Below are positions 1 through 12,936 of a DNA stretch of 14,030 nucleotides, piece by piece. The notes beneath the pieces were generated by a model that searched no databases, was not told the origin of the DNA, and worked only from the letters and a program-made list of their open reading frames with translations. Positions within the stretch are counted from its first letter, which is position 1. Every line of letters begins with the position of its first letter. The stretch is from Candidatus Falkowiibacteriota bacterium (GTDB lineage: Bacteria > Patescibacteriota > Patescibacteriia > Patescibacteriales > UBA12075): the NCBI GenBank assembly GCA_003647675.1, contig QMNH01000007.1:1-14030 (forward strand). Reading direction: 5' to 3'. The translations under genes were made by a program, and so were the position numbers.

Positions 1-1495
1 TCCTTCTGGTTTTTTCAAGCAGTAAATTATATTTTTCATTAAATTCCGCATATTGCCCTTTTTGTAGTTCGGTTTCTTGCGGAAAATCGTTTAACAAATC
101 ATTAATTTCAGTAAATAATTTTTTAGCTCCTTCTTCATTACTGTAAAGCAAGTTAGCTTCAGCCTGATTTTGCTTTTTTTCAATCAGAGCGGCTAGTTCA
201 CTATAGGATTGTTGTAAGTTTTCTTTATTTGTTTTTATTTTTGTCCGGGCGATATTAATGGAAAAAATAATCAGGAATACAATTAATAAAATTAATAGTA
301 TTTTACTTTTTTTGTTAAGGTGTACTAAAAATGAGCCTGTTTTTAAAATTTTTTCTTTTAGGCCTGATTTTGCTTGGCCGGAAATAGCAGTAATTTTTTC
401 TTTATTAGTGAAATTTTTATAAATATAATAGAAAAAGTTAGCCGAATAGAAAAAAACATTTTTTATTGCCTGCCATATTATTTTTATTGCTCGTCCGGGT
501 TTTTTCTTTACGTATATCCTATCTTTAAGGATGATAGTATTTTCTTTTTTTGTTTTTTCTTTGCCCCTTTTCATAAACAGCGCTGGAAGTTTAATCCATT
601 TTTTAAAGCTGATTATGCCTGATGGGGTTAGTAAATTTTCAGTATTATCTTCGGTTTTGCTTAAGTCTGTAATTGATTCGCTTGGAGCCGCGAGATAAGT
701 AAATTTTTCTTTTTCTTTTTCACTGCCAATCGGGCCTTTTATTATTAATCCGACAAAGGATACATAAAAATTTATTTTGGATAAAATATTTTTAATTTGT
801 TCTACCGCGCTTATCGGGGGCAGGGTTGAAATTATTTTAATGATTTGTTTGCTTGAAATATATTCCGGCAAAGCTTCGTTTGAGATAAAGAAAAAACTGC
901 CAAGCGGTATCTGTCCGCTTATTACATTGGAAAACAATTTTGTATTGTTGATTTTTGTTTCCTCGCCAATTAAGTTTGTGATACTATATTTTTCATTTTC
1001 CGGTTCTTTTTTTTCTGAATTACTTAAGCCGCTATCTTTTAGTTTTTTAAGATTTTTTTCAATTTTTTTCTTTTTGTAAATTAAAAATACTTTATTTTTT
1101 CCGACATTAGCCAAATAAAGCATATTCTCGTGGATTATTCCGATTGTAATATTAATATCTAAGCTAGTTAATTTTATTTTTTCATTATCAATAAAATTCA
1201 AAAAATCTTTATTTGTTTTAGCTAATGCAGATTCAAAAATGTGCTCAGTTTTTAAGGTGGTAATTTTTTCTTTTAAAAATATTTTTTCATTTTGATAATA
1301 ATTTTGATTAATTTTATCTATTAAGAAATGTATAATTTTAAGGCTATTGGCTTTATTGTTTTCTATTTCAATTAATATGAATAATTTCCCGGCTAAGGCT
1401 TTTTTGGCGGCATCGGGCTCTGATATAAATATTTCGCAGGTAGTTTTAGCGTTTTTTTCAGGTTTTAAGTTTATTTGTGCTATTTTTATGCTCAT
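1..1495 (-). CDS. PP2C-like pseudo-phosphatase with one membrane segment (partial, C-terminus outside window)
   Basis: This frame stays open for 498 residues from ATG at 1495 to the window edge, so the C-terminus is missing. Residues about 30-240 follow the order of a PP2C (PPM) phosphatase fold. GKLFILIEIEN (36-46) sits where GxLFxVxDGMGGH is expected, NVGKNKVFLI (130-139) replaces the NxGDSRxYL strand, and GSFFFISNEAL (199-209) replaces the DxLLLxSDGL strand. The metal-binding Asp/Gly residues are therefore replaced (DG to EN, GDS to GKN, SDG to SNE), which suggests a catalytically dead domain. A basic stretch near 300-335 precedes one hydrophobic segment (399-415), followed by a polar, probably coiled-coil region from about 420 on. 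The N-terminus is probably cytoplasmic and the C-terminus extracellular. The start is chosen because it is the first ATG about 30 nt downstream of a consensus promoter; there is no SD. The fold assignment is from motif order by eye and is moderately sure; the exact role is unknown. Confidence 0.85.
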   Translation of the reverse strand, partial: MSIKIAQINLKPEKNAKTTCEIFISEPDAAKKALAGKLFILIEIENNKANSLKIIHFLIDKINQNYYQNEKIFLKEKITTLKTEHIFESALAKTNKDFLNFIDNEKIKLTSLDINITIGIIHENMLYLANVGKNKVFLIYKKKKIEKNLKKLKDSGLSNSEKKEPENEKYSITNLIGEETKINNTKLFSNVISGQIPLGSFFFISNEALPEYISSKQIIKIISTLPPISAVEQIKNILSKINFYVSFVGLIIKGPIGSEKEKEKFTYLAAPSESITDLSKTEDNTENLLTPSGIISFKKWIKLPALFMKRGKEKTKKENTIILKDRIYVKKKPGRAIKIIWQAIKNVFFYSANFFYYIYKNFTNKEKITAISGQAKSGLKEKILKTGSFLVHLNKKSKILLILLIVFLIIFSINIARTKIKTNKENLQQSYSELAALIEKKQNQAEANLLYSNEEGAKKLFTEINDLLNDFPQETELQKGQYAEFNEKYNLLLEKTRR

Positions 1496-1510
1496 AATTT
1501 TAATATTTTT

Positions 1511-1539
1511 TTGACTTTAGGGCTATATGTTATTATACT
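1511..1539 (+). promoter_or_regulatory. Sigma70-type promoter of the wHTH gene
   Basis: TTGACT (1511-1516), a 17-nt spacer, then TATACT (1534-1539). Each box differs from consensus at one position. The predicted transcription start near 1546 gives a leader of about 30 nt to the ATG at 1576, without an SD. Its -10 box overlaps the -10 box of the divergent promoter by four bases. Confidence 0.7.
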
Positions 1540-1561
1540 ATAGAAAAGCATAGAAATTCAA
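1532..1561 (-). promoter_or_regulatory. Sigma70-type promoter of the PP2C-like gene
   Basis: Read on the minus strand: TTGAAT (1561-1556), an 18-nt spacer, and a perfect TATAAT (1537-1532). The predicted start is near 1525, about 30 nt before the ATG at 1495. It overlaps the divergent plus-strand promoter, so the two can hardly be occupied at the same time. Confidence 0.65.
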
Positions 1562-1575
1562 ATTATATTTTATTT

Positions 1576-2250
1576 ATGTTAGGAAAATTGTTTGGTTCCA
1601 AAACCAGAGTTAAAATTTTAAAATTATTTTTATCAAAGCCGGACGAGCGTTTTTATATTAGGCAGATTGCCCGCGATTTAAAGCTGCAGCTTAATTCAGT
1701 CAGGCGTGAGTTAGAAAATTTGGAGCAATTCGGGTTATTAACTTCCAGTCCTATGGATTTAAGCGAAAAACCGCCTGAAGAAGAAATAGTAATTCAAACC
1801 TTGAGCGACGTAAAGGAAAGCAAGAAAAAGAAAAAAATAAAAAAAGAGGCTCTGCCAACCAAGACTGATAAAAAATATTTTCGGGTAAATACGGATTTTA
1901 TATTGTATGAAGAAATTAAAGCATTAATAATAAAAGCCCAGGTTTTGTATGAAAAGGATTTTATTAACAAAATTAGCAAAATTGGCAATTTACGATTATT
2001 GATTTTATCCGGTTATTTTGTGAATGACCCAGCGGCTCCGGTGGATTTATTTATAGTGGGCAAATTTAATAAAAATAAGTTAACTAAATTAATAGGGGAG
2101 CTTGAAAGCGATTTAAACAGAGAAATTAATTATACCATAATGGCATTAAAAGAATATCAATTTCGCCGCGATATTACTGATATATTTTTATATGATTTAT
2201 TGGAAAGAAGAAATATAGTAGTAATTGATTTAATAAGCAGAAAACCATAA
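1576..2250 (+). CDS. Winged-helix protein with degenerate nucleotidyltransferase-like domain
   Basis: 224 residues. The N-terminal 1-58 is a winged helix-turn-helix: SKTRVKILKLFLSKPDERFY, then IRQIARDLKLQLNSVRRELE as the helix pair, and LGL-type wing residues (FGLLTSS). A charged Lys-rich linker (78-100, KESKKKKKIKK) follows. Residues 138-218 look like a minimal nucleotidyltransferase fold: RLLILSGYFVNDPAAPVDLF, where a hG[GS]...DxD signature would be. The Ser is Tyr147 and the second Asp is Phe159, so metal binding is unlikely and the domain may be a ligand or partner sensor. It is divergently transcribed from the PP2C-like membrane gene, with overlapping promoters, which suggests it regulates that gene, itself or both. 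No SD; the ATG lies 30 nt from the predicted transcription start. The DNA-binding call is fairly sure; target and ligand are unknown. Confidence 0.85.
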   Translation: MLGKLFGSKTRVKILKLFLSKPDERFYIRQIARDLKLQLNSVRRELENLEQFGLLTSSPMDLSEKPPEEEIVIQTLSDVKESKKKKKIKKEALPTKTDKKYFRVNTDFILYEEIKALIIKAQVLYEKDFINKISKIGNLRLLILSGYFVNDPAAPVDLFIVGKFNKNKLTKLIGELESDLNREINYTIMALKEYQFRRDITDIFLYDLLERRNIVVIDLISRKP

Positions 2251-2313
2251 TTTTTATAATTTTATCAGTTTTTTACCTAATCTTAAATAATAAAAAATAA
2301 TTTAATTATAAAT

Positions 2314-2348
2314 AAAAAATCCTTTTAAATAAGGATTTTTTGTTTTTT
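2314..2348 (+). terminator. Intrinsic terminator after the wHTH gene
   Basis: An 11-bp perfect stem, AAAAAATCCTT (2314-2324) with AAGGATTTTTT (2331-2341), has a 6-nt loop. It is followed by GTTTTTTATT. The U-rich 3' side makes it a plausible rho-independent terminator; the A-rich 5' side means it could also act on the minus strand. Confidence 0.75.
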
Positions 2349-2438
2349 ATTGCACCCATATTGATAATAAAATAAATAATAGCTAATTTTAGCGATATCA
2401 ATAATTAATAATAGTAAATTAAATAAATTAAATAGCAC

Positions 2439-2467
2439 TTGACAATTTTACAATAATATGCTAAATT
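2439..2467 (+). promoter_or_regulatory. Extended -10 promoter of the Wzz-like gene
   Basis: Perfect TTGACA (2439-2444), a 17-nt spacer, and TAAATT (2462-2467) preceded by TGC (2459-2461), which makes an extended -10 element. The predicted start near 2474 gives a leader of only about 20 nt to the ATG at 2495, with no SD. Confidence 0.65.
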
Positions 2468-2494
2468 TTTAAGTTAATTTTTATTTTTAAATTT

Positions 2495-3250
2495 ATGGAA
2501 TTACTTCAATTTATTAAATTAATCGGCAAAAGAAAACAGACAGTAGCGACTGTTGTTGTTTTATTTTTAGTAATAGCAATAATTTTTACTTTTACCCAGC
2601 CCTTTAAATACGCCAGTGAAACAAAGATTTTAGTTATTCAGAATTTTCCCCAAGGGTCTGATCCTTACGCGATTTCACGCTCTAACCAATATCTTAGTTC
2701 GGTTTTAGCCCGGATTGTTAATACTAATTTATTCTATAATGAAGTAATTAATTCCGGTTTTAATATTAAAAAAGAATATTTTTCGCAAAACGTGGAAAAA
2801 CAAATTAGGCTTTGGAATAAAACAGTTAGCGCGAAAACCATAGGAGATTCCGGCTTAATCAGTATAAAAGTTGTTCATCTTGACAAATACCAGTCTGACC
2901 AAATTTTAAGAGGAGTTAATAATGTTTTAAAGACTAACCATGCTTTTTATCATGGTTTAGGCGACCAGGTAGCAATTAAAACCGTGGATCAGCCCTATAC
3001 AACGGATTGGCCGGTTGAACCGAATATTGTTTTAAATCTTATGTTATCTCTGGTTTTTGGCGTAGTATTTAGCTTTAGCTTGATTTTTCTATTTCCTGAA
3101 GAAAAATTTAGCTTCAAAATGTTTTTTTCACGGCGAAAAGGTTTTACCGGTGAATATACGAATGTTGAGGATATTGACTCGGAAAAAGAATACGATCAAT
3201 CTAAAAATTTTGATTATAAAATTAGGAAGTATAATCCTTCGGAGGTTTAA
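2495..3250 (+). CDS. Wzz-like polysaccharide chain-length/co-polymerase protein
   Basis: 251 residues. It has two membrane segments (about 17-35 and 178-200) that flank a periplasmic/extracellular region of about 140 residues, the layout of Wzz/PCP chain-length determinants. A Pro-containing stretch leads into the second segment (VDQPYTTDWPVEPNIVLN, 164-181), like the Pro-rich motif of this family. The extracytoplasmic part is short for Wzz, and the cytoplasmic C-terminal tail (about 201-251) is polar with several Tyr (YTNVEDIDSEKEYD). There is no Walker motif, so it is not a fused tyrosine kinase. The start is the ATG right after an extended -10 promoter; no SD is present. Function is inferred from topology and from the glycan genes downstream (8464-12870), which are separated from it by the exported-protein block. 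It could also be a generic anchor protein of the same topology. Confidence 0.8.
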   Translation: MELLQFIKLIGKRKQTVATVVVLFLVIAIIFTFTQPFKYASETKILVIQNFPQGSDPYAISRSNQYLSSVLARIVNTNLFYNEVINSGFNIKKEYFSQNVEKQIRLWNKTVSAKTIGDSGLISIKVVHLDKYQSDQILRGVNNVLKTNHAFYHGLGDQVAIKTVDQPYTTDWPVEPNIVLNLMLSLVFGVVFSFSLIFLFPEEKFSFKMFFSRRKGFTGEYTNVEDIDSEKEYDQSKNFDYKIRKYNPSEV

Positions 3251-3398
3251 GCAATTGGCTGATGATAATTGTTTGTGTTGGAATGGAAACAAGGCGGTTA
3301 AATTCAGAAAAATTATAAATTATAATAACTAAATTATAAATAAGCACTTAATTTTAAATAGTTAATTCAAAATTTTGATTAAATATAGTTTAAATTTA

Positions 3399-3449
3399 TC
3401 AGGTTTCTAAAATTAAAAAGAATTTTTGTTTTTAGATTTAGAAGCCTGA
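3399..3449. repeat. Long imperfect inverted repeat in intergenic region 3251-3572
   Basis: Arms 3399-3419 and 3429-3449 (21 nt each) pair with 18 Watson-Crick pairs, two G-U pairs and one mismatch around a 9-nt loop. The base of the stem holds the only G+C-rich pairs (TCAGG/CCTGA). No T-run follows on either side, so it is not a typical intrinsic terminator. It lies between the Wzz-like gene and the promoter of the OmpA-like gene. It may end or process the upstream transcript, or be a protein site. The rest of 3251-3398 is featureless AT-rich DNA. Confidence 0.65.
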
Positions 3450-3464
3450 ATTACAAATTGTAAT
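3450..3464. promoter_or_regulatory. Perfect 15-bp palindrome, candidate operator
   Basis: ATTACAA-A-TTGTAAT is an odd-centred perfect palindrome ending 13 nt upstream of the TTGACA of the next promoter. Spacing and symmetry fit a dimeric repressor or activator site. The binding protein is unknown, and AT-rich DNA produces such palindromes by chance, so this is tentative. Confidence 0.4.
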
Positions 3465-3477
3465 AAAGGTGAGTTCG

Positions 3478-3504
3478 TTGACAATTAAATATATAAAATA
3501 TGTC
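3478..3504 (+). promoter_or_regulatory. Probable promoter of the exported-protein block
   Basis: Perfect TTGACA (3478-3483). The best -10 candidate is TATGTC (3499-3504) at 15 nt, which is weak and short-spaced. The -35 box is convincing and the -10 box is not. The position, 60-90 nt upstream of the corrected start at 3573, leaves room for the two leader hairpins. Confidence 0.45.
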
Positions 3505-3525
3505 AGTAAAGATTAATTTTAATGA

Positions 3526-3567
3526 TTGCGCGAGCGCGCAACAATGGTCCGAGCGGACCGAAGGAGG
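3526..3567 (+). promoter_or_regulatory. Two GAGC-capped hairpins plus SD in the leader of the OmpA-like gene
   Basis: Hairpin 1: TTGCGC (3526-3531), loop GAGC, GCGCAA (3536-3541). Hairpin 2: GGTCC (3546-3550), loop GAGC, GGACC (3555-3559). One base later comes the SD AAGGAGG (3561-3567), five nt before ATG 3573. The frame is open back to an ATG at 3522, but that extension would translate both hairpins and bury the signal peptide, so it is better read as an untranslated leader. The hairpins may protect the mRNA end or tune access to the SD. Confidence 0.7.
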
Positions 3568-3572
3568 AAGAA

Positions 3573-4586
3573 ATGAAAAAGAATCTATGGTTAAGCGTGA
3601 TTATTGTTTTAATGATTTTTTGTGTAGGCAGTACAGCATATGCAAATGAAAAGCTTGGGAGTTTTTATCTTGGTGCTTTTACCTCAGAGAAGGCGAACTG
3701 GACCGATAGTATGGATTCTCAGCTTTTATCAGCTATGGCAAATGTTCCCGCTCAAGCCAGTCTTAAAATTTTCGGTCATACCGATAATTCCGGACCCAAG
3801 GCTTTTAACGAAGGGCTTGCCGATAAACGAGCTAAATTAGTGGCCAGCCAGATCAAAAAACTAAGTCCAGAAATCAGTATTACTGAGGTTACCGGAATAA
3901 TTTATCAGGCCGGTTCTAATGACGTTGATTACAAGATGGCCCGGGTTGAGGTAGAGGTGCCCGATGGATGGCTTATTACTAACAAAGAGTTAGCTAACGA
4001 GTTTAAAAAAGGTATTGTTGATTTAAGGGCTGAGCAGATTAAGCAAGGCCAGTCAATTCAGAATCTCGAAAAGCTTACTCAGGAAACAAGCCAGGGAGTA
4101 AAGAGCGTTACACAGAAAGTAAACGGAGTAGAACGTGAGCTAGAGACGGCAAAATTTCAGGCAAACGTTGAGGCTGAGAAAAACAAATTTAACATTTTTC
4201 TGATTCTTTGTGTGGTTTTGGTTATTCTTATTGTTTTAGTTTTCGTCTATGTAGCGATAAGAAGAGGCCTGAAAAAAACAGGTGATAAAATTGAAGCAGT
4301 CAATGAAGAAATTCAAGAGACTGTTGTTAGTACGGTTTTATCAAAAGCTTTTCGATTCAAGGTAGAAAGCGAAGGCAAGTTATATTTGGTGCCAATCAAG
4401 CAGGAGGCTAATGAAAAATGGAGCGCGCCTTTTATCACTGAGAAAAAACAGCCTGTTCAATTTATTGATCTTAAAGCGACAAAAAAGAATGTTAAAAATA
4501 TTTTTAACGGGAAGCAAAAAGATTTTTTTCGATCTCAAGTTGATAAGTTGATAGAAAATGGGGTAATAACAGTAATGGAACAATAA
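3573..4586 (+). CDS. Exported OmpA-like domain protein with transmembrane segment and cytoplasmic tail
   Basis: 337 residues from ATG 3573. That start is chosen over 3522 because AAGGAGG lies five nt upstream and a signal peptide follows at once (MKKNLWLSVIIVLMIF..., likely cleavage after AYA, residue 24). Residues about 43-130 resemble the OmpA C-terminal peptidoglycan-binding domain: GHTDNSGP...NEGLADKRAKLV. Asp71 and Arg86 sit where OmpA family members bind diaminopimelate, and VEVEV forms the last strand. Residues about 135-205 are a polar, heptad-like coiled coil (LRAEQIKQGQSIQNLEKL). A second hydrophobic segment (207-228) is followed by RRGLKK and a 107-residue cytoplasmic tail that I do not recognise. 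The result would be a type I membrane protein linking peptidoglycan outside to something inside. It is first in a block with a lipoprotein and a LysM protein. OmpA-like assignment is good; role is inferred. Confidence 0.88.
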   Translation: MKKNLWLSVIIVLMIFCVGSTAYANEKLGSFYLGAFTSEKANWTDSMDSQLLSAMANVPAQASLKIFGHTDNSGPKAFNEGLADKRAKLVASQIKKLSPEISITEVTGIIYQAGSNDVDYKMARVEVEVPDGWLITNKELANEFKKGIVDLRAEQIKQGQSIQNLEKLTQETSQGVKSVTQKVNGVERELETAKFQANVEAEKNKFNIFLILCVVLVILIVLVFVYVAIRRGLKKTGDKIEAVNEEIQETVVSTVLSKAFRFKVESEGKLYLVPIKQEANEKWSAPFITEKKQPVQFIDLKATKKNVKNIFNGKQKDFFRSQVDKLIENGVITVMEQ

Positions 4587-4606
4587 TAAGATAAACAATA
4601 AATAAA

Positions 4607-4632
4607 TTCGGTTCCCGTAAAAAGGAACCGGA
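4607..4632 (+). promoter_or_regulatory. Intergenic hairpin between OmpA-like and lipoprotein genes
   Basis: CGGTTCC (4609-4615) pairs with GGAACCG (4624-4630) around an 8-nt loop; T4608-G4631 and T4607-A4632 can extend it. No T-run follows, so it is probably an mRNA processing or stability element, or a partial attenuator, inside the operon. The lipoprotein SD (AAGGAG, from 4648) lies 15 nt downstream. Confidence 0.55.
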
Positions 4633-4660
4633 TAATAAAAAGTTTATAAGGAGACGAGCA

Positions 4661-5692
4661 ATGAAACGAAAATATATACCAGTTTTACTGATTATCGTAT
4701 TATTCGCGATAAGCGGATGCGCGAGCAATAAAACCAAGCCAGAGGAAATGTTTTTTGCACCGGATTTTCCGAAAACAAAAAAGGATATTATAACAAATAT
4801 AGATTTTCGTTTGCCAGAAAAGTTAGATGTAGCAGATACAGCTTTTCTTGGCGAGTCGGGAATAAAAATTCCATCGTTTTCATGGAAAACAGTGGAATGG
4901 AAAAAGGAAAAGAACGGAAAATGGAAAGTAGTGGGAGAGTGGTATGCTCTTAGACTGGAAATACCCAACGAAGAACCATTGCTAGTTATTACTTTTCCGG
5001 ACGACGGAAGAGATCATTTTGGTAATTTAATCTCGGTTAGAGATCATGCTGGCCTAAGATTATATAACCAACAGGGGCAATATATTCACGTCCCCGAGGG
5101 TTGGCGCAAGGTTAATCCCGATGATTATCCGAATTTTTTTACTAAAATTTCGGATAAAAATACGGTTAAATTAACCAAAGGTAGCCTGGAGTATGACGAT
5201 TGTATGAATTTTTACGATAAGTTTATAACTGAAGCTTTAGAAAGCAGGGATAAAGTTTACAGTAAGTACGATGTACCAATAGGAACTCCATTCAGTAAAG
5301 AACTTTTAGACCGAGTTAAAAATGATCCGGAAGTGGAAAAGCTTAAGTCTTTTTTCTTTGATAATTGGTACGTGTTTTTCACATACCCGCTGTTGTCCCC
5401 CGTGGATTATGGCGCGTTTATATTCATATCCAAGGCTTGGCAAATTCCAACAACATTTTGGAAAGATGACACTGATAGGCCTGGCTATATGGACCGGCGA
5501 TTAACTGCCAGTGGTGCGTACAATATGATGGAATATTATTCGCGTAAATATGGCGGATTCGGTAGCGGAAGTGGTGGAGTAGAAAAATTACTTTCTCCGG
5601 AATTAAAGCAAACGATAAAGGAAGTTCACGGAAAAGATTTTACTACCTACGGTGAATACAACGCCTGGGTGATAAAACAAAACAATCAGTAG
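4661..5692 (+). CDS. Lipoprotein of unknown function
   Basis: 343 residues. The N-terminus MKRKYIPVLLIIVLFAISGC is a lipoprotein signal peptide with lipobox I-S-G-C and the acylated Cys at 20. Ala follows at +2. The mature protein is soluble-looking, rich in Lys/Asp and aromatic residues, with no second membrane segment. A short Gly/Ser stretch (GGFGSGSGGV, about 299-308) links the last helix-like part, which ends AWVIKQNNQ. I do not recognise the family. It starts from ATG 4661 with SD AAGGAGA about nine nt upstream, 74 nt after the OmpA-like gene and 43 nt before the LysM gene, so the three probably form one operon. G+C and codon use match these neighbours rather than the glycan genes. Anchoring to the outer face of the cytoplasmic membrane is the safe inference. 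Confidence 0.85.
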   Translation: MKRKYIPVLLIIVLFAISGCASNKTKPEEMFFAPDFPKTKKDIITNIDFRLPEKLDVADTAFLGESGIKIPSFSWKTVEWKKEKNGKWKVVGEWYALRLEIPNEEPLLVITFPDDGRDHFGNLISVRDHAGLRLYNQQGQYIHVPEGWRKVNPDDYPNFFTKISDKNTVKLTKGSLEYDDCMNFYDKFITEALESRDKVYSKYDVPIGTPFSKELLDRVKNDPEVEKLKSFFFDNWYVFFTYPLLSPVDYGAFIFISKAWQIPTTFWKDDTDRPGYMDRRLTASGAYNMMEYYSRKYGGFGSGSGGVEKLLSPELKQTIKEVHGKDFTTYGEYNAWVIKQNNQ

Positions 5693-5735
5693 AAAGGTTA
5701 TAGGTTTTTATTACACAGGAAAGGAGGTGAAGCAG

Positions 5736-7460
5736 ATGAAAAAGCTATTAATAGCAGTAGCGGCACTAGCTGTCGTATTGTTTCCCGTAAGCGTTACGGC
5801 CGGAACTTATAAAGTAAAACCTGGCGATTGTTTGATCAGAATAGCGAGCAGGTTTGGCTCAACGGTTAACGAACTCGTGAGAATCAACCGGATTTCAAAC
5901 CCGAACTTGATTTTTGCCGGTACGAACATAAATATTCCAGGAGAGATTACAGATGAGGCTGTTACTGCTTCACCTAAGCCTTTTTACTGGAAAAATGTGA
6001 ACGTAGATCCGGTAGGACCCCGAAGAAGCTCAACAATAATGATTGATAAATTTTCTTTTTCGGAAGACAAGAAAATTAATGAAGAGGTAAAAAAGAAGTT
6101 AATTGAGAAAGTATCGGCTAAAGATTTTCGATGGATAGGACTAAAGGACGGCGACTATTTTGAGCAAATGGGATTTGGCGAATACAGAGTTCGGGATAAT
6201 GTTTTCGCGGCCTGGGGACAAGGACAGCTTTACGCGGCTAGACTTTACGAAGTTGAACATAAGGGCCGTAAATATTTTTTAGCTGAACCCTTAGTATGCC
6301 ATAACTGGTGCTGGTGGAGAGAAAAAATTAAAAAGAAGAAGCTACTATTGCTTCTTATGCCCCCGCCAATTAAAGGCCAGCCGACCGAAACTTTATTAGT
6401 CGAAAAAAAGCAAAAAGAGAAATTTGTATGGCGTCCCGATTGGGAGACATGGTTTTATGTCGGGCATTACATCGGCGCCCAGGAAGAAAATGAACATGAT
6501 TGGTCAGAATATTATGGTGGTAATGTTTCCTTTTTTCCTCACGAATGGCGTTTGGGTAATGGAATTTTTCGAGCCGGACCCGCATTTCAATACGTGGGTT
6601 GGCGCGGAGAAGCTGACAGGTCTGTTGAATACTGGGGCCACATGAATTTGTTTGGCGGTGAAGGCCAGTTTATTACCGGCGACACCAAGACTCAGTTTAA
6701 AGCTTATTTCGGCAAAAAGTATGGCGGAGTTAGCGGTCTTGGATTTCCCTATGAACAAAGACAAGAAAACCGGATTTTAGCCATCGAGCCGTCCCACGTG
6801 AAGTGGTACGGTGACCGGAAGTGGTTTCCTGAGATAGAAGTTGGCGGACGCTTTGAATTTGATTTAGACGGAAAAAGGCACTCTTCATGGGATGGTAATT
6901 CGATTCCCGAGGCCGACGATCCAGCCGACAATCAATCTTATTACAGTATTCGCGCTAAAACAGAGGTCTACCAAGGAAAGTATGTTACGCCGACCGCTGA
7001 ATTAACATTCGGTTATCGCTGTTTTGACGAGGCTTATCACCTTGAACCGCGTGCTGGAGTTAAGTTGTTTCGCAACCTTGTTGAAACCGATGTTAGCTAT
7101 AACATAGTGGAGGGGCCGAATAACAATATGGTTGGCGCGCATGTTATTCTTAATGTCAGCGATGGCGTTAAAAGACTCTGTTATTGGCTTAAAACCAAAA
7201 ACCGTGGCAATCAAGCGGATAAAGTTAAAGCCGAAGAAGAGTCGGACAGTAGGAAAAAGCTGAAACCGGCAATTTCCGAAGTTACTGTCAATGAAAGCGT
7301 TAAAAGGCTTTATTATCGGCTTAAGGTGAAAAATTCAGATTATCAAGCTAATAATCGGGGTGATAACCAAGCCAAAATAAGTTCAGTCCAAAAGGATAAT
7401 AGGCAACCGCCGATTGATCCGGCTTCTGCAGAAGCAATGGACGAAATAGAGCTTATGTAA
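5736..7460 (+). CDS. Secreted LysM protein with beta-strand-rich C-terminal region
   Basis: 574 residues from ATG 5736. A GTG nine nt upstream (5727) overlaps the SD GAAAGGAGGTGA and is rejected. The signal peptide is 1-22 (MKKLLIAVAALAVVLFPVSV-TA). LysM domain at 24-68: TYKVKPGDCLIRIASRF...NPNLIFAGTNINIPG, a peptidoglycan/glycan-binding repeat. Residues about 80-195 form a second, unrecognised domain ending in a Cys/Trp cluster (VCHNWCWW, 187-194). A basic, poly-Leu and Pro linker follows (KKKKLLLLLMPPP, 199-211). Residues about 238-475 consist of alternating polar/hydrophobic strands rich in Gly, Tyr, Trp and Phe, such as AELTFGYRCF and PRAGVKLFRNLVETDVSYNI, resembling an outer-membrane barrel. 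The C-terminus carries two copies of a VKRL-Y-LK-KN unit. A true barrel would be surprising in a monoderm-type cell, so the fold is uncertain. Confidence 0.87.
   Translation: MKKLLIAVAALAVVLFPVSVTAGTYKVKPGDCLIRIASRFGSTVNELVRINRISNPNLIFAGTNINIPGEITDEAVTASPKPFYWKNVNVDPVGPRRSSTIMIDKFSFSEDKKINEEVKKKLIEKVSAKDFRWIGLKDGDYFEQMGFGEYRVRDNVFAAWGQGQLYAARLYEVEHKGRKYFLAEPLVCHNWCWWREKIKKKKLLLLLMPPPIKGQPTETLLVEKKQKEKFVWRPDWETWFYVGHYIGAQEENEHDWSEYYGGNVSFFPHEWRLGNGIFRAGPAFQYVGWRGEADRSVEYWGHMNLFGGEGQFITGDTKTQFKAYFGKKYGGVSGLGFPYEQRQENRILAIEPSHVKWYGDRKWFPEIEVGGRFEFDLDGKRHSSWDGNSIPEADDPADNQSYYSIRAKTEVYQGKYVTPTAELTFGYRCFDEAYHLEPRAGVKLFRNLVETDVSYNIVEGPNNNMVGAHVILNVSDGVKRLCYWLKTKNRGNQADKVKAEEESDSRKKLKPAISEVTVNESVKRLYYRLKVKNSDYQANNRGDNQAKISSVQKDNRQPPIDPASAEAMDEIELM
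7165..7348 (+). repeat. Two-copy 52-bp in-gene repeat at the 3' end of the LysM gene
   Basis: Copies at 7165-7216 and 7297-7348 lie exactly 132 bp (44 codons) apart and match at about 37 of 52 positions. Both begin GCGTTAAAAG and end ATCAAGC. They encode VKRLCYWLKTKN (478-489) and VKRLYYRLKVKN (522-533), each followed by a polar NQA/YQA stretch. This indicates an old internal duplication of a basic tail module. Confidence 0.7.
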
Positions 7461-7480
7461 AGCCAAGTATTAAATAAAAC

Positions 7481-7577
7481 ATACTTTCAATAGCCGGCAG
7501 GGGACGAGCGTCCTTAAAGAAGGTTCCGAGCGGAACTGGTCGAAACGGGATCGAGCGATCCCTAGCTTAGAAAGTTG
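7481..7577 (+). ncRNA. Candidate multibranched structured RNA with three GAGC-capped hairpins
   Basis: Hairpin 3: GGAC (7502-7505), GAGC, GTCC (7510-7513). Hairpin 4: GTTCC (7523-7527), GAGC, GGAAC (7532-7536). Hairpin 5: GGGATC (7547-7552), GAGC, GATCCC (7557-7562). ACTTTC (7483-7488) pairs with GAAAGT (7570-7575), extended by T7482-G7576 and A7481-T7577, to close a four-way junction. It lies 20 nt after the LysM stop codon, in the 421-bp gap 7461-7881. It could be a 3' UTR stabiliser of the upstream mRNA, a processed small RNA, or an unusual terminator; there is no T-run after it. A perfect 12-bp palindrome, TTGTTTAAACAA (7579-7590), follows directly. Confidence 0.5.
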
Positions 7578-7633
7578 TTTGTTTAAACAAGTAAAAAGAA
7601 AAAAAATAAAAAAATCATAAAAACGAAAACAAT

Positions 7634-7673
7634 GAGGCAAAAATCAGTAAAATTTTACATAAATTTTTGCCTC
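7634..7673. promoter_or_regulatory. Nested inverted repeats abutting the -35 box, candidate operator
   Basis: GAGGCAAAAAT (7634-7644) and ATTTTTGCCTC (7663-7673) are perfect 11-bp inverted arms. Between them lies a second perfect palindrome, GTAAAATTTTAC (7647-7658). The right arm ends exactly where TTGACA begins. As RNA it could be the last hairpin of the upstream transcript, but no U-run follows. An operator for the next promoter is the favoured reading. Confidence 0.5.
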
Positions 7674-7702
7674 TTGACATATATTCTGATTTGATGTATG
7701 AT
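7674..7702 (+). promoter_or_regulatory. Strong sigma70-type promoter of the small secreted protein gene
   Basis: Perfect TTGACA (7674-7679), a 17-nt spacer, and TATGAT (7697-7702), one base off consensus. The predicted start near 7709 leaves an unusually long leader of about 170 nt before ATG 7882, in a genome whose other leaders look 20-30 nt long. Confidence 0.75.
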
Positions 7703-7708
7703 ATAAAA

Positions 7709-7881
7709 TCTTAAACGCACATTAATAAATAAAAAAGTTGGGGAGGTCCCAACTAATTGAGCGCGGCTCCTCCCTGAAAAATTTGCTTAGAGGCAGAAAA
7801 GGAGGTGGTGACGCGCGGGAAGTGAAAAAACGAAAAATTAAAAACGAAAAACTAAAAACATAATAAAAGGAGGAAAGAAAC
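7709..7881 (+). promoter_or_regulatory. Structured leader with competing GGAGG/CCTCC pairings and an orphan SD
   Basis: GTTGGG (7737-7742) can pair with CCCAAC (7748-7753). GGGAGG (7741-7746) can instead pair with CCTCCC (7769-7774); the two helices share bases and exclude each other. CCTCC is also an anti-SD that could pair with AGGAGG at 7800-7805 or with the gene's own AGGAGG at 7868-7873. GAGC (7759-7762) pairs with GCTC (7766-7769) as a small local hairpin. AAAGGAGGTG at 7798-7807 is a near-perfect 16S complement without a well-spaced start. The nearest short frame is GTG 7822 to TAA 7863 (13 basic codons), 16 nt away. No known riboswitch class is recognised. Confidence 0.5.
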
Positions 7882-8337
7882 ATGAAAAAGACTCTTGCAG
7901 TATTGGCAATTGTTGGACTGGCGATGATTTTCGTCACTGCCGGATGGTGTGGAAACGATCAACCTTATCGTTCCCTGAACGCTTATGACATCGGAAACGA
8001 TTCTTATGTTCCTAATCGTGCCATTAAAGTAATTCCTGGCGTAGGAAAAAATTCACAGATAATCGGTTTTTCCGATTATAACGGATGGGGAGTAGGAGGT
8101 CCCGAGAGTATTGATCCGGATGTTTTGGCAGCAACTTCAGGTGTTTATCTGCCCGAAATAAATATGTGGAAGTTTTCAGATGTTGCCGGAAAAAGATTTC
8201 ATCCCTCGATTTTTGATAAAACCGGAAAACGATCCTGGGCAAAATTGGAAGATCTTCCGGACTTCATGTCCGCAACCTGGATTAATAGGGATGTTCCAAA
8301 TAAACCCTGCATTCAGGTTAATAGGGCAAAACAGTAG
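7882..8337 (+). CDS. Small secreted protein of unknown function
   Basis: 151 residues. It has a clear signal peptide (MKKTLAVLAIVGLAMIFVTA, cleavage near residue 20-24). The Cys at 23 follows Gly-Trp, so there is no lipobox. The mature part of about 127 residues is polar with many Asn, Asp, Gly, Pro, Trp and Tyr (YDIGNDSYVPNRAIKVIPGV, GWGVGGPESIDPD), typical of a compact extracellular beta-rich domain. Two Cys (23 and 144) remain. No family is recognised. The start is fixed by AGGAGG (7868-7873) eight nt upstream and by the signal peptide. It has its own strong promoter, a long structured leader and a strong terminator, so it is a monocistronic and probably highly expressed unit. G+C and SD style match the three exported-protein genes before it. 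Confidence 0.85.
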   Translation: MKKTLAVLAIVGLAMIFVTAGWCGNDQPYRSLNAYDIGNDSYVPNRAIKVIPGVGKNSQIIGFSDYNGWGVGGPESIDPDVLAATSGVYLPEINMWKFSDVAGKRFHPSIFDKTGKRSWAKLEDLPDFMSATWINRDVPNKPCIQVNRAKQ

Positions 8338-8361
8338 CAAAGGGGAGGCTACCGCACAACA

Positions 8362-8397
8362 CAAGGGTATTCGTAAAGAATACCCTTGCTTTTTTTT
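8362..8397 (+). terminator. Strong intrinsic terminator closing the exported-protein block
   Basis: Perfect 11-bp stem CAAGGGTATTC (8362-8372) with GAATACCCTTG (8378-8388), loop GTAAA, then C and eight T. It separates the small secreted gene from the glycan operon. A second small hairpin, GTAGC/GCTAC (8334-8338, 8348-8352), overlaps the upstream stop codon. Confidence 0.93.
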
Positions 8398-8463
8398 CAA
8401 AAATGTGTTATAGTTTATTGTTATATATTTTAATAATAAGTAAGACTTCTTTAAGCTGATAAA

Positions 8464-9816
8464 ATGGCTAATATTAAAGAAAAAGAGCTGAATATTTTAG
8501 AGCGCTTAGTAATTTTAATAGGCGGTGTTTTTCTTTTTTTGTTAATTTCAGGGAAAGCCAGTCTTTTTTTATGCCTAGGTATAGCAATTATTGCCTTAAT
8601 ATATTTTTTGGGGCGCAAGTATTTATGGCTATTTTTAGTTTTAGCTCCAATTAGCCTAATTTTTGGGCAAATTATCTATATTCAAATAACCACTGGTTGG
8701 GTTTATGAGGCTAGTTTAGCTGAGATTTTTTTGGGACTGGCCGCAGTTGTTTATTTTTTGGACATATATTTAAACAATAAATTTACCAGTGTTAAAATCG
8801 ATCAGGTTATTATTATTTTATTAATTTATTTACTGTTTTCCTTGGCGGCCGTTTTTTACGCCATTGATTGGCGTTTATATATTTTTGGCCTGAAAGTCGG
8901 GGTGTTTTCATTTTTGGCCTATTTTTTAAGTTTAAATTTATTGCGAGAAAAAAAACAAAAGATTTTTTTATTGATAAGCCTTTGTTTGACCGGTTTTATT
9001 TTAAGTCTGGGGGTAATGCAAAAATTTTACGGGATGGGTTTTTCGTCTGAATTTTTCTTTAGCCGGAATACTATAATTATCCCTTTCGGACCCTTAGCCA
9101 CAACCGCGGCTATGTTAAGTTTTTTAGCGCCGATAATTTTGGGCTTTTATTTTTCATTGACGCCTTCAAACAAAAGTAGACCCTATATTTTTATTTTATT
9201 TATTTTTTCTTTTCTCGGCGTTTTCATTAGCTTGGGTAAGGGCGCGATAATCAGCCTGCTTATCGGACTAAGTTATTTATTTTTAAAATTAAAGAAAAAG
9301 CGTCCGGCTTTTTTATTATTCTTTTTAGTTTTTATATTACTGGGCTATTTATTTTTAAATCCTTTTTTGGCCGGCATTTTTACCCGCGTAAAAACAACCC
9401 TGGTTGATGTTAATACGGAATTTAGAATAAAAGAATATAAAGCCGGCTGGGAGCTTTTTTCCGCGCATCCCTGGTTCGGAGTCGGCCCGGGCCAGCAGCT
9501 GATATATTTTGAAAAGATGCTGGATATGGAAAACCGGGCGCAGGTTAATAATTTTTTAATTCAAGCTTTGCTGGATTTAGGCCTTATTGGGGGAATGCTT
9601 GTATTTTGGCTATTAATTAATATTTATAGAAAAACAAAAAAAATATTATTAAATAAAAACAACCAAGATATAGCTTTAAAACTTGGTTTTACGGCCGGTG
9701 CGATAGTTGCCTTTTTTAACGGCTTAGTTGAAGTAACATTTTTTGCTTTACCATACGCGATAATATTTTGGTTAGTATTAGGAATATTTTTAAATGATAA
9801 TAAAAAATATGTTTAA
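8464..9816 (+). CDS. O-antigen ligase / Wzy-type polymerase-like membrane protein
   Basis: 450 residues, almost entirely hydrophobic, with roughly ten to twelve membrane segments. The Wzy_C/O-antigen ligase signature is visible. A large loop begins at FRIKEYKAGWELFSAHPWFG (320-339), continues VGPGQ, then VNNFLIQALLDLGLIGG (361-377), the place of the usual HNxYL...LGxxG. The His of that motif is Val361 here. SLGKGAIISLLIG (256-268) fits the conserved segment before the loop. Members transfer or polymerise undecaprenyl-linked glycans outside the membrane, or ligate glycans to proteins; which one cannot be told from sequence. It starts at ATG 8464 after a strong terminator, without an SD, and overlaps the next gene. 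Very low G+C, unlike the block just upstream. Confidence 0.85.
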   Translation: MANIKEKELNILERLVILIGGVFLFLLISGKASLFLCLGIAIIALIYFLGRKYLWLFLVLAPISLIFGQIIYIQITTGWVYEASLAEIFLGLAAVVYFLDIYLNNKFTSVKIDQVIIILLIYLLFSLAAVFYAIDWRLYIFGLKVGVFSFLAYFLSLNLLREKKQKIFLLISLCLTGFILSLGVMQKFYGMGFSSEFFFSRNTIIIPFGPLATTAAMLSFLAPIILGFYFSLTPSNKSRPYIFILFIFSFLGVFISLGKGAIISLLIGLSYLFLKLKKKRPAFLLFFLVFILLGYLFLNPFLAGIFTRVKTTLVDVNTEFRIKEYKAGWELFSAHPWFGVGPGQQLIYFEKMLDMENRAQVNNFLIQALLDLGLIGGMLVFWLLINIYRKTKKILLNKNNQDIALKLGFTAGAIVAFFNGLVEVTFFALPYAIIFWLVLGIFLNDNKKYV

Positions 9817-11668
9817 ATTATCAGTCATAATTATAAATTACAATACTCCGGACATGACCGAGCGGGTAATAAAAAATTTCTACGCCCAAGAATCGGATTT
9901 GTCGGTTGAGTTTATTTTAATTGACAATAGCACGGAAAAATTTTTTTCGTCGGAAACAGCCGGTAAGCTGGGCGTAAAATTAATAAAAAATAATTATAAT
10001 GCCGGCTTTGCCGCGGCAGTAAACCAAGGTCTTAAAGAAGCTAGAGGAGAATATGTGCTTCTTTTAAATTCAGATGTTTTAATAGAAAATAGATCAGTGA
10101 GCCGGCTTACTGCTTACATGGAAAAAAATAAAGATGTTGGCATTATTGGCCTAAGAATGGTTTTTCCGCACGGGAGACTTCAGTTAAGTTGCGGCCGGTT
10201 TCCGGCGTTTTGGCCGGAATTTTTACGCTTATCCGGGCTTTATAGAATATTTTCCGGTAGCACATTGCTTAACAAAAAAGAGCTAGAAAACAATTCAAAA
10301 ATTCCAATAGCGGTTGATTGGGTATCAGGCGGCTGTTTGCTAATTAAAAGAGAATTGTTTAAGCGCTTGAACGGGGTTGATGAAAAATATTTTTTAGGCG
10401 GAGAAGATTTTGATTTAGGCTGGCGCGCGCGACAAGCCGGTTTTAAGACAATGTATTATCCAAAAGCAAAAGCAGTGCATTTTCTTGGTTTTTCTTCCGG
10501 AACAGAGGGTACCCGGTCTTTAAAGAGACTTCAATATGACCGCGCGGGCATAGATTATTTTTTAAAGAAAAATTTTTTAAGAAAAAGAATTAACAGGTTA
10601 GCAATAAAATTAATGCATAATATCAGAATAATAATAATAAAAATAACAAATAATATAAAAAATATGCTAAAAAAGAAATTAATTCCGCGGGATGCGACCG
10701 TTGCAATAACTTACGGGTGTAATTCGCGCTGCCAAATGTGCAATATTTGGCAGATAAAAAATCCGCCCTCGCTTTCACTTGAAGCAATAGGCAATTTAAG
10801 CTCTAAGTTGAAATATATCAATATTACGGGCGGAGAGCCTTTTCTACATCCACAATTAGTAGATATTGTGAAAATCATAAAGACAAATAACCCGAAAGTC
10901 CAGATTATAATTTCCTCAAATGGCTTAGCTACGGGGTTAATAACAAAAACCATAGCAAAAATATTTAAATTTGATCCAAGGATTGGCGTTCGGATTTCAA
11001 TTGACGGTCTTAGAGATACACATAATAAAATTAGGGGAGTGAACAATATGTTTGAAAACGCTATGGCAACAGTTAAAGCCTTAAGAGAGATCGGGGTAAA
11101 AAATTTAGGCATTAGTTTTACTATAATGGAAAACAATGCTTCTGAAATAAAAGACGTTTATGCCTTGGCTAAAAAGGGAAAATTGCAGTTGGCGTTGGCC
11201 TTGGTACAGAATTCCGATATTTATTTCAGTAAAAAGACCAACCAAATAAATACGGTATCAAGGGTAGCTGACGGTTTGGATTATATAATTAAAGAAGAAT
11301 TAACAAGCCGTCATCCAAAGAATTGGGCGCGGGCATTTTATGATTACGGCTTAAAGCTCTACGCGTTAAAAAAACAAAGACTTCTTAAAAGCGGCGCCGG
11401 TTTTGATTCTTTATTTATTGATCCGAATGGAAAAGTGTATCCGAGTAATTTAATTAATTTAAACATGGGAAATATAAATAAAAGTAATCTGGACGTAATT
11501 TGGCAGTCAGGGCAAGCAGTGAAGGTCAGAAAAAAAATAAAAAACGAAAATATTCAGGAAAGCTGGATAATTTGTACTATCAGAGGCGAGATGAAGAAAA
11601 AAATATTAAAAGTATTAAGCTGGATAATAACCAGTAAATTAAAAGCATCATTTGGTTTTAAGGTATGA
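9809..11668 (+). CDS. GT2 glycosyltransferase fused to a radical SAM/degenerate SPASM domain
   Basis: 619 residues from ATG 9809 (MFKLSVIIINYNT, typical GT2 start). ATG 9794 adds five residues; neither has an SD. Residues 1-235 form a GT-A glycosyltransferase of the rhamnosyltransferase-like GT2 type: NYNTPD, LIDNS, LLLNSDVLI (metal site at 87-89), VSGGCLLIKRELF, GGEDFDLGWRARQAG. A low-complexity basic linker (about 255-290) contains Met286 (10664), where a separate radical SAM gene would start. Residues 295-530 are radical SAM: CNSRCQMC (304-311) gives Cx3Cx2C, then ITGGEPF and SSNG, and RISIDG. The C-terminal part matches SPASM (FIDPNGKVYP) but lacks most cluster Cys. It overlaps the previous gene by 8 nt and the next by ATGA. 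Possibly glycan assembly coupled to a radical modification; the substrate is unknown. Confidence 0.87.
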   Translation: MFKLSVIIINYNTPDMTERVIKNFYAQESDLSVEFILIDNSTEKFFSSETAGKLGVKLIKNNYNAGFAAAVNQGLKEARGEYVLLLNSDVLIENRSVSRLTAYMEKNKDVGIIGLRMVFPHGRLQLSCGRFPAFWPEFLRLSGLYRIFSGSTLLNKKELENNSKIPIAVDWVSGGCLLIKRELFKRLNGVDEKYFLGGEDFDLGWRARQAGFKTMYYPKAKAVHFLGFSSGTEGTRSLKRLQYDRAGIDYFLKKNFLRKRINRLAIKLMHNIRIIIIKITNNIKNMLKKKLIPRDATVAITYGCNSRCQMCNIWQIKNPPSLSLEAIGNLSSKLKYINITGGEPFLHPQLVDIVKIIKTNNPKVQIIISSNGLATGLITKTIAKIFKFDPRIGVRISIDGLRDTHNKIRGVNNMFENAMATVKALREIGVKNLGISFTIMENNASEIKDVYALAKKGKLQLALALVQNSDIYFSKKTNQINTVSRVADGLDYIIKEELTSRHPKNWARAFYDYGLKLYALKKQRLLKSGAGFDSLFIDPNGKVYPSNLINLNMGNINKSNLDVIWQSGQAVKVRKKIKNENIQESWIICTIRGEMKKKILKVLSWIITSKLKASFGFKV

Positions 11669-12870
11669 AAATTTTACAGATAAACAAATTTTATTATTTA
11701 AAAGGCGGCAGTGAGCGCCATGTTTTCGGCTTGTCCGAAATTTTGGAAGAAAAAGGCCATAAAGTAATTCCATTTTCCATGCAAGACCCTAAAAATAAAA
11801 AATCTGAATTTGAAAAATATTTTGTTAAACCGATAGATCTTCATAAGTTTAATATTATAAATATTATTAAATATTTTTATAATTTTGACGCCGTAGCCAA
11901 ACTGAAAAAATTAATCAAAGACCAGAAGCCGGACATTGCCCATCTTCATAATATTACCGGCCAATTAACTCCGGCAATAATTAGAGTGCTTAAAAAGCAT
12001 AATATCCCGATAATAATGACTTTGCATGATTACCGGTTAATATGCCCCAATAGCCAGCTTTATAGCCAGAGAGAGATTTGTTATCGCTGTCAGGGAGGAA
12101 AGTATTATAATTGTCTTTTAAGAAAATGCGTCCATAATTCATTTGGGAAAAGCTTATTAGCCATGCTTGAATCTTATTTAAATAATAAATTTTTAAATTA
12201 TTATAAGCATATTGATTTATTTATCGCGCCCAGCCAATATATGAAAGAAATAAGTGCAAGGTTCGGAATTCCGGAAAATAAAATAAAAGTAATTTATAAT
12301 TTTATTCCCAAAGATATTAATATTAGTTTGAAAACGGATAGCAAGCAAACAGAAAATTATTTATTATATTTCGGTCGTTTAAGCAAAGAGAAGGGGATAG
12401 ACGTTTTAATAGATGCCTTTAAGGAAGTAAAAGAATATAATTTAAAAATTGTCGGTTCCGGTCTGGAGTTTGAAAATATACAACAGAAAATAAAAAAATT
12501 AAGTTTAACTAATATTGAATTACTAGGTCCGAAATACGAGAAAGAATTACAGGAATTAATTAAAGGCGCGAAAGCAGTAATCATCCCGTCAGTCTGGCAG
12601 GAAAATATGCCATATAGTCTGCTTGAGTCTTTGGACGTGGGTAAAATTGTGATTGCTTCCAATATTGGGGGAATGAAAGAGGTTATAATTGACGGACAAA
12701 ATGGGTTTTTATTTAAACCCGGGGATAGCATTGAGCTAGTTAATAAAATAAAAAATTTAAAAATAGTTGATAATAAGGCCATAGAAAGTAATATTAAAAA
12801 AACAGCATTAAAATTTAGCATAGAAGAATACGTAAACAGTTTAACGGAAATATACAAAAAATTGATTTGA
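11665..12870 (+). CDS. Glycosyltransferase family 4
   Basis: 401 residues. A GT-B enzyme: the N-terminal domain starts MKILQINKFYYLKGGSERHV (GGSE loop near the acceptor side). The C-terminal domain has NYLLYFGRLSKEKGIDVLI (231-249), with Arg238 and Lys243 as probable phosphate-binding residues. The EX7E motif lies in ENMPYSLLE (Glu313, Glu321), and SNIGGMKEVIIDGQNGFLF follows. A Cys cluster (127, 139, 142, 150, 155) in CPNSQLYSQREICYRC...CLLRKC may bind metal; such clusters occur in a subset of GT4 enzymes. It transfers a sugar from a nucleotide-sugar to a lipid-linked glycan at the cytoplasmic membrane. The ATG overlaps the preceding TGA as ATGA, so translation is probably coupled. Donor and acceptor cannot be read from sequence. 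Confidence 0.9.
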   Translation: MKILQINKFYYLKGGSERHVFGLSEILEEKGHKVIPFSMQDPKNKKSEFEKYFVKPIDLHKFNIINIIKYFYNFDAVAKLKKLIKDQKPDIAHLHNITGQLTPAIIRVLKKHNIPIIMTLHDYRLICPNSQLYSQREICYRCQGGKYYNCLLRKCVHNSFGKSLLAMLESYLNNKFLNYYKHIDLFIAPSQYMKEISARFGIPENKIKVIYNFIPKDINISLKTDSKQTENYLLYFGRLSKEKGIDVLIDAFKEVKEYNLKIVGSGLEFENIQQKIKKLSLTNIELLGPKYEKELQELIKGAKAVIIPSVWQENMPYSLLESLDVGKIVIASNIGGMKEVIIDGQNGFLFKPGDSIELVNKIKNLKIVDNKAIESNIKKTALKFSIEEYVNSLTEIYKKLI

Positions 12871-12878
12871 CAGATAAA

Positions 12879-12907
12879 TTGACAATTAATAAAAAATTTG
12901 ATAACTT
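12879..12907 (+). promoter_or_regulatory. Possible extended -10 promoter before the propeller gene
   Basis: Perfect TTGACA (12879-12884), a 17-nt spacer, and TAACTT (12902-12907) preceded by TGA, an extended -10 arrangement like that at 2439-2467. A second TTGACA (12867-12872) overlaps the end of the GT4 gene. The -10 box is weak. The predicted start is near 12914, about 23 nt before the ATG at 12937. Confidence 0.4.
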
Positions 12908-12936
12908 TTAGCTAATAAAAAACAAATTTTAAATAT

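Follow-up and report, generated by a model that had tools for sequence, protein, structure and literature searches.

Hairpins that share one loop within an exported-protein operon of a Candidatus Falkowiibacteriota bacterium, and related operons with shared loops of their own

Why should five short hairpins whose stems differ completely all display the same four-nucleotide loop? The question is raised by a stretch of 14,030 nucleotides from a Candidatus Falkowiibacteriota bacterium (assembly GCA_003647675.1, contig QMNH01000007.1, positions 1 to 14,030 of the forward strand), hereafter the window, in which two arrays of GAGC-capped hairpins lie in the gaps of an operon for exported proteins. 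Array A, on the + strand in front of the omp gene, comprises a hairpin at 3526-3541 (TTGCGC-GAGC-GCGCAA) and another at 3545-3560 (core 3546-3559; (U)GGTCC-GAGC-GGACC(G)), the latter ending immediately before the Shine-Dalgarno sequence. Array B, on the same strand behind lysM, comprises three, at 7500-7515 (core 7502-7513; GGGGAC-GAGC-GUCCUU, including two G·U pairs), 7522-7537 (core 7523-7536; GGTTCC-GAGC-GGAACT), and 7547-7562 (GGGATC-GAGC-GATCCC), the first and third of which have a competing fold. A previous inspection of the letters of this DNA, hereafter the sequence-only reading, had described a family of five such hairpins, and all five C(GAGC)G hairpins are indeed present at these coordinates, with perfect stems and a C-G pair closing the loop. 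G·U pairs lengthen three of the stems to 6 bp (3545-3560, 7500-7515, and 7522-7537), and the loops follow each other at 19, 22, and 24 nt within the arrays. In 200 dinucleotide shuffles of the window, such hairpins number 0.04 on average and 1 at most, against five observed, and no C-closed loop at all (stem of at least 4) is found more than twice. A chance origin of the five is excluded.

Related operons bear on the question. The gene order wzz-omp-lipo-lysM recurs in genomes of the same order, often preceded by an hth gene, although not every gene is always present or recognised. RNAfold analysis reports rows of hairpins in many of their gaps, and each row has its own shared loop: GATT in six hairpins of locus L210, GATA in six of L261, ATTT in five of L209, ATCT in three and GAAT in two of L211, and, in two hairpins each, AATT in L208, GGAT in L267, GAAT in L214, and AAAA in L268. 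Five loci (the window, L208, L209, L210, and L261) have one loop common to two separate gaps. What recurs is loop sharing among the hairpins of an operon and not any particular loop; the loop differs between species, where it appears to change in concert. The sequence-only reading had expected the loop to be conserved in orthologous loci, and it is not; by the standard that this reading set itself the missing GAGC would count as a refutation, but the syntenic loci show another pattern, since they carry shared loops of their own. Its proposal of selection on RNA hairpins read through their loop is thus better supported by the relatives than by the window alone, whereas GAGC itself is not kept, and the earlier interpretation is correct as to kind but not as to detail.

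The extent of this sharing was assessed in 71 loci including the window, 60 of them taken around Wzz matches (L223 and L271 represent one contig; L219, which duplicates L254, was left out). Stem enumeration over the 71 loci finds 20 same-loop pairs, of which L210 gives 10 and the window 6, compared with a shuffle mean of 0.27 and a maximum of 3. With RNAfold hairpins from the 19 operon loci, the end of the window leader being set by hand to 3572, 49 of 204 within-locus pairs have the same loop (48 of 201 without the window), while permuting the loops among the loci yields a mean of 4.96 and no more than 16 in 5000 permutations; L210, L261, and L209 supply 40 of the 49. Chance is rejected by both comparisons. 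Counts of the 6-mer made of the loop and its closing C and G are diagonal for six loci (own loops 5, 7, 3, 5, 5, and 4 times, foreign loops 0-2 times), a description rather than a test, as the loops were chosen from the same loci. Under a strict array rule (at least three hairpins within 350 nt, with the same loop and closing pair and different stems), the window, L210, and L261 are the only arrays in 1.19 Mb of other loci, some places of which are repeated, and those of L208, L209, and L211 fall short. Of note, two hairpins with a near-identical stem and a CAA loop occupy the gaps 4668-4832 and 5292-5425 of L255, a likely duplication.

How such a loop changes can be followed within one genus. 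L209 (genome G027) and L211 (G026) bear the same genus label, g21. An alignment of their lipo-lysM arrays spans 110 columns and shows 19 substitutions, 5 of them in the 16 loop positions and 14 outside. Four of the five loop substitutions are one and the same: position 3 of all four orthologous loops is T in L209 and C in L211. When 19 substitutions are placed at random, all four loops are struck at one common position, whatever the letter, in 536 of 200,000 trials. L210, the third g21 genome with the operon, has GATT in the same four places according to RNAfold. Some form of selection acts on the four loops of L209 and L211 as a group. This bears on the simplest alternative, that the hairpins merely stabilise the mRNA as a protector of the 5' end and a barrier to 3' exonucleases, and look alike in their loops because they are duplicates with diverged stems. 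The stems are short and, in the window, the arrays occupy a 5' leader and a position behind the last operon gene, as such hairpins might; stabilising hairpins at the 5' end are known from the E. coli ompA mRNA. Duplication followed by stem divergence nevertheless fails to account for the shared loop, because the L209 and L211 hairpins are recognisable as orthologues one to one and yet their loops differ together, and no stability bonus is given to GAGC in the energy model, a disadvantage of 0.8 kcal/mol against GAAA. We regard plain stabilising hairpins as distinctly unlikely. Judged by eye, short matching stems seem to enclose the arrays: UUAUUC/GAAUAA in L209 (6976 and 7091), UUAUUCC/GGAAUAA in L211 (7308 and 7421), and UUAUCUU/AAGAUAA in L210 (7534 and 7634).

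Are the arrays read as RNA or as DNA? For the six clearest loci, 29 sites were selected by the C-loop-G 6-mer alone, 28 of them non-coding and the other at 5680 of L210, and two sites that are evidently not hairpins were kept. Their 145 flanking stem cells comprise 107 Watson-Crick pairs, 16 G·U pairs, and 22 that are neither, so that 123 are paired. G·U makes up 16 of the 38 non-Watson-Crick cells, while 2 in 12 are expected (p = 2e-4, for cells that are not fully independent as L209 and L211 share ancestry), and this enrichment points to RNA rather than DNA. It equally speaks against inverted repeats that would serve as operators for a dimeric DNA-binding protein, an idea to which the TTGACA-like element adjoining some copies and the winged-helix-like gene that lies nearby in several loci lend some colour. 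Operators usually keep their arms and vary their centre; the arrays here do the reverse. DNA operators are in our judgement very improbable.

In the window, RNAfold favours the hairpins of array A, whose pairs have probabilities of 0.92-1.0 except the outermost pair of the first hairpin (0.45), and the middle hairpin of array B (0.98-1.0). The stretch 3440-3580 folds with a z of -2.9, and the region 7461-7680 is much more stably folded than its shuffles (z -4.3). A + strand stem that closes array B is predicted between 7467-7488 and 7570-7588, with small interruptions. No family of Rfam 15 is reported in the window at gathering score, and an intrinsic terminator scan calls none of the five hairpins on the + strand and only 7536-7523 on the - strand. 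In 11 related loci, Rfam 15 returns six tRNAs and one L10 leader, none of them at the arrays.

The GAGC loop, for its part, looks specific to this locus from the sequences covered. The genome of the bacterium (1.17 Mb in 209 contigs, 89% complete) was scanned for hairpins over contigs C1-C80, that is 712 kb or 61%. A genome-wide GAGC-hairpin repeat was considered and rejected, as CGAGCG occurs 248 times and its reversed control 260 times, which is background, and CCGAGCGG shows no excess either (26 against 24 for the control). The 712 kb hold no further non-coding GAGC hairpin with at least 5 pairs; four others of that size all lie in coding frames, and one more, in L022 on a contig outside the 712 kb, is antisense to an open frame. 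Pairs of CGAGCG spaced 8-38 nt apart resemble the reversed control in 111 genomes (counts judged by eye, unsummed). In the genome of the window they number 11 against 1, three of them being the window arrays and the remaining eight having no matching stems by eye. The sequence-only reading had predicted that a covariance model of the five hairpins would give many matches near genes for exported proteins. This prediction failed, GAGC arrays being found only here in what was searched: matches in 11 of 109 order genomes at E <= 0.5 and in 14 of 379 phylum genomes at E <= 0.1 are both below the rough E-value expectation, under stricter filters that lose weak matches. The model recovered four of the five hairpins in the genome of the window, the only one with a cluster; G423 has two matches 38 kb apart, and no other genome listed has more than one. 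The strict array rule picks out two arrays in the 712 kb, that of the window and a C(GGCG)G triple in L123, at reverse-strand coordinates ~3716-3758.

The anchor of synteny is wzz (2495-3250, + strand), encoding a chain-length determinant protein of Pfam family Wzz. It is followed on the same strand by omp (3573-4586), encoding an exported protein that has a transmembrane-like segment and a weak OmpA-type domain scoring under the Pfam cut-off, by lipo (4661-5692), encoding a predicted lipoprotein without Pfam or NCBIfam family, and by lysM (5727-7460, likely ATG at 5736), encoding an exported LysM protein. All five hairpins are outside likely coding sequence, as the first inspection had held. 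For array A this follows from the omp start: a longer ATG frame from 3522 extends through both hairpins, but the strong + strand Shine-Dalgarno AAGGAGG at 3561-3567 points to a start at 3573. In seven leaders, the Shine-Dalgarno is preceded by a hairpin whose end lies 9-17 nt from the omp start codon (13 nt in the window, 9 in L208, 15 in L209, 11 in L210, 17 in L211, 12 in L261, and 13 in L267). L213 and L318, the latter identified at a later stage, have a hairpin ending 16 nt before omp, and L214, L215, and L268 have none at that distance. Array B occupies the gap between lysM and the gene of a small exported protein in the window and L268, and lies before lysM in L208-L211, L213, and L214; it falls in the lipo-lysM gap in several relatives, and in L261 it is flanked by two unnamed frames upstream of lysM.

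Many orthologous leaders share a further element upstream of the hairpin next to omp, (C)TTTGACAA(t), which is similar to the GTTGACAAT element at 3477-3485 (+ strand) upstream of array A. The pattern TTTGA[C/A]AA is found in the 700 nt that follow wzz in 11 of 17 operon loci (in a frame in one of them, L256) compared with 5 of 52 others, and TTGACAA takes its place in the window and L215. The element resembles a -35 box, and no -10 is seen by eye at the usual distance.

The operon itself was traced by several searches. A Wzz profile matches in 82 of 111 order genomes, the lipoprotein sequence in 9 of 111, and OmpA in 3 of 111 (2 of 19 in a smaller set); LysM matches in 47 of 379 phylum genomes, outside the genome of the window only in the LysM domain region. 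Orthologous loci were reached through the lipoprotein sequence and the Wzz profile. No orthologue was obtained through LysM in the genome-contig scan or through OmpA or the small protein in the viral-contig scan, and neither a search with an exact promoter pattern nor DNA searches of phages and plasmids returned an orthologous locus. A lipoprotein profile finds 5 matches in 380 class genomes, two of them new, G757 and the weak G530. In G757, which possesses wzz, omp, and lipo, a single C(AAAT)G hairpin separates CTTGACAAT from the Shine-Dalgarno. The contig breaks off within the following gene and does not reach an array B, so that G757 stands outside the loop-sharing comparison.

Stems that are free to vary, together with a shared loop that differs as a set between relatives, argue for a single reader. 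We therefore propose that the hairpins are the sites of one loop-reading trans factor that controls the exported-protein operon post-transcriptionally, a proposal whose chances we put at about even. One cellular trans-acting factor would recognise the loop and its C-G closing pair and ignore the stem. At array A, in the omp 5' leader where the last hairpin touches the Shine-Dalgarno, it would set omp translation, whereas its role at array B, in a later gap, would be to protect, localise, or titrate, in the manner of CsrA on the Campylobacter flaA mRNA. The reader would in this way control translation or decay of the omp-lipo-lysM operon, and its specificity would drift between species with the loops following.

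What might the reader be? The gaps that hold the hairpins show no excess of the loop's complement, except for the self-complementary AATT, so that the loop-loop contact in cis once suggested for this DNA finds no support; on reasoning, self-complementary kissing could occur only for AATT and, with G·U, for GATT. A reader made of RNA would be a small antisense RNA that binds the loop and its closing pair through a seed, and G·U wobble would allow seed and loops to drift together. ATTT and ATCT loops would both be able to pair with an AGAU seed, and wholesale changes of loop, including the T/C exchange in four loops, fit a wobble-tolerant partner. The lack of enriched complements in the gaps goes against such a partner, as does the weakness of a seed of four to six base pairs; in the 712 kb, five places outside the window could, whether coding or not, display CGCTCG in a hairpin. 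An antisense RNA seems unlikely. A protein reader seems likelier than an RNA reader, given that complements of the loop show no excess nearby and that the contact would involve only four to six bases.

Several observations weigh against a single loop-reading factor. In array B, the hairpins 7502-7513 and 7547-7562 have a rival fold in which the arms of one pair with those of the other: their probabilities are 0.28 and 0.29 in a 140-nt context, where the minimum free energy fold is matched in energy by a fold constrained to contain all three hairpins (RNAfold, both -38.2 kcal/mol), and 0.02 in an 81-nt context, where the competing fold is better by 2.9 kcal/mol. In the six clearest loci, at least three further pairs flank 18 of 28 non-coding C-loop-G 6-mers and 4 of 13 others, a difference that is not significant (Fisher p = 0.09), one of the four "other" sites being that at 5680 of L210, before a likely omp start. 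A shared tetraloop is present in nine operon loci and missing in the other 10 of 19, including L213 and L215. In L211, the loops differ between the gaps, GAAT/GGAT in one and ATCT in the other. The 52 loci that lack all four operon genes also show a weak excess, 5 of 61 pairs against 1.34 (54 of 5000 permutations are as high), two of the five pairs coming from one contig represented twice. Loop sharing in L267, L214, and L268 rests on two hairpins each, and their 6-mer counts are not diagonal (own loops 0, 1, and 2 times, at most as often as some foreign loops). Lastly, the trans factor was not found, and phmmer returned no CsrA- or Hfq-like protein in 61% of the genome of the window and 69 other loci. 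As a separate observation, L213 and L215 have hairpins at comparable places, several of those in L213 with CATCG/GATCG variants by eye.

Beyond this operon, a wider reading is possible though doubtful: the hairpins would belong to a class of Patescibacteria regulators in which a trans factor reads a species-specific "loop code" on an exported-protein operon, the code and its reader co-evolving so fast that codes differ even between species of one genus. The arrays have the look of a new RNA element, one whose evolutionary signature is unusual. No earlier description was found in the literature searched, which covers longer listings in part and leaves subscription journals outside and is thus weak evidence of absence. 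Loop-recognised hairpins normally keep their loop over long evolutionary times, whereas here the whole set can differ between close relatives; GAGC alone would have passed as a curiosity of one genome, and covariance models that fix a conserved loop will miss RNA families of this kind. If the proposal is true, a co-evolving reader becomes searchable with the comparative set at hand, nine loops of which three rest on two hairpins each, and uncultured ultra-small bacteria would offer a rare regulatory handle on the expression of surface proteins.

The rest of the window adds a few features. The small exported protein encoded downstream of array B (7882-8337, + strand) belongs to no Pfam or NCBIfam family. 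A near-consensus sigma-70 promoter, TTGACA-17-TATGAT, lies at 7674-7702 between array B and this gene. The ensuing leader (7736-7820) contains a strong hairpin, AGTTGGG-GAGGT-CCCAACT, together with a CTCCTCC stretch for which a GGAGG further downstream is a potential pairing partner, possibly a separate switch. The omp-lipo gap has a G+C-rich hairpin without GAGC loop at 4609-4630. The frame 9794-11668 joins a family 2 glycosyltransferase to a radical SAM/SPASM enzyme, through either a fusion or an assembly effect.

Among known systems, lambdoid antitermination offers a first likeness: the hairpin of the boxB/N system is loop-specific, and its phage-specific loop is common to the two nut sites of one phage. 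Lambdoid boxB elements are, however, single hairpins accompanied by boxA, and not arrays. As to the GAGC tetraloop, the statement that it is neither GNRA nor UNCG is right, but CGAGCG, found in all five window hairpins, fits the rare cGANCg tetraloop. That tetraloop is reported from group IIC introns, where it docks with a U-turn-like fold into a receptor inside the intron, whereas the window hairpins lie in mRNA gaps and the sister loci use loops outside GANC. An RNA-guided array of the TIGR type, in which a conserved loop repeat alternates with variable spacers, would also explain tandem variable arms around a constant, locus-specific loop; the tandem units of TIGR-Tas arrays are reported to combine a constant loop, variable flanks, and locus-specific repeats, and such loci are known from phages and parasitic bacteria. 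Compared with the dual-repeat type, the window has no visible edge repeats or fixed 9-nt spacers, its loops being 19, 22, and 24 nt apart and its arms pairing with each other; a second, stem-loop type of TIGR array, with box C/D motifs, has been described as well. No Nop-domain gene is present among the ten window proteins scanned with Pfam, the rest of the genome not having been searched, and we find a TIGR-type array hardly credible.

The closest comparison is with the sites of CsrA and RsmE. The 45-nt leader of the Campylobacter flaA mRNA is reported to form two stem-loops with GGA-containing loops bound by CsrA, and the mRNA to titrate CsrA. The flaA leader and the CsrB/RsmZ sponges resemble the present arrays in having several short hairpins with one shared loop motif, and in flaA two hairpins reach the Shine-Dalgarno of an mRNA for an exported surface protein. 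The window hairpins are excluded from the Csr family because GGA is missing from their GAGC loops, and among the RNAfold hairpins listed for the operon loci the shared GGA-type loop is confined to L267 and one L211 hairpin; the gap 3339-3526 of L267 has GGAC, GGAT, and GGAT, and the gap 5193-5374 of L211 one GGAT, all of which look similar to Csr sites. With an approximate E. coli CsrA query, phmmer gives no match at E <= 0.1 in contigs C1-C80 of the 209 and in 69 loci. Csr loops keep GGA across species, whereas the loops of these operons vary by species.

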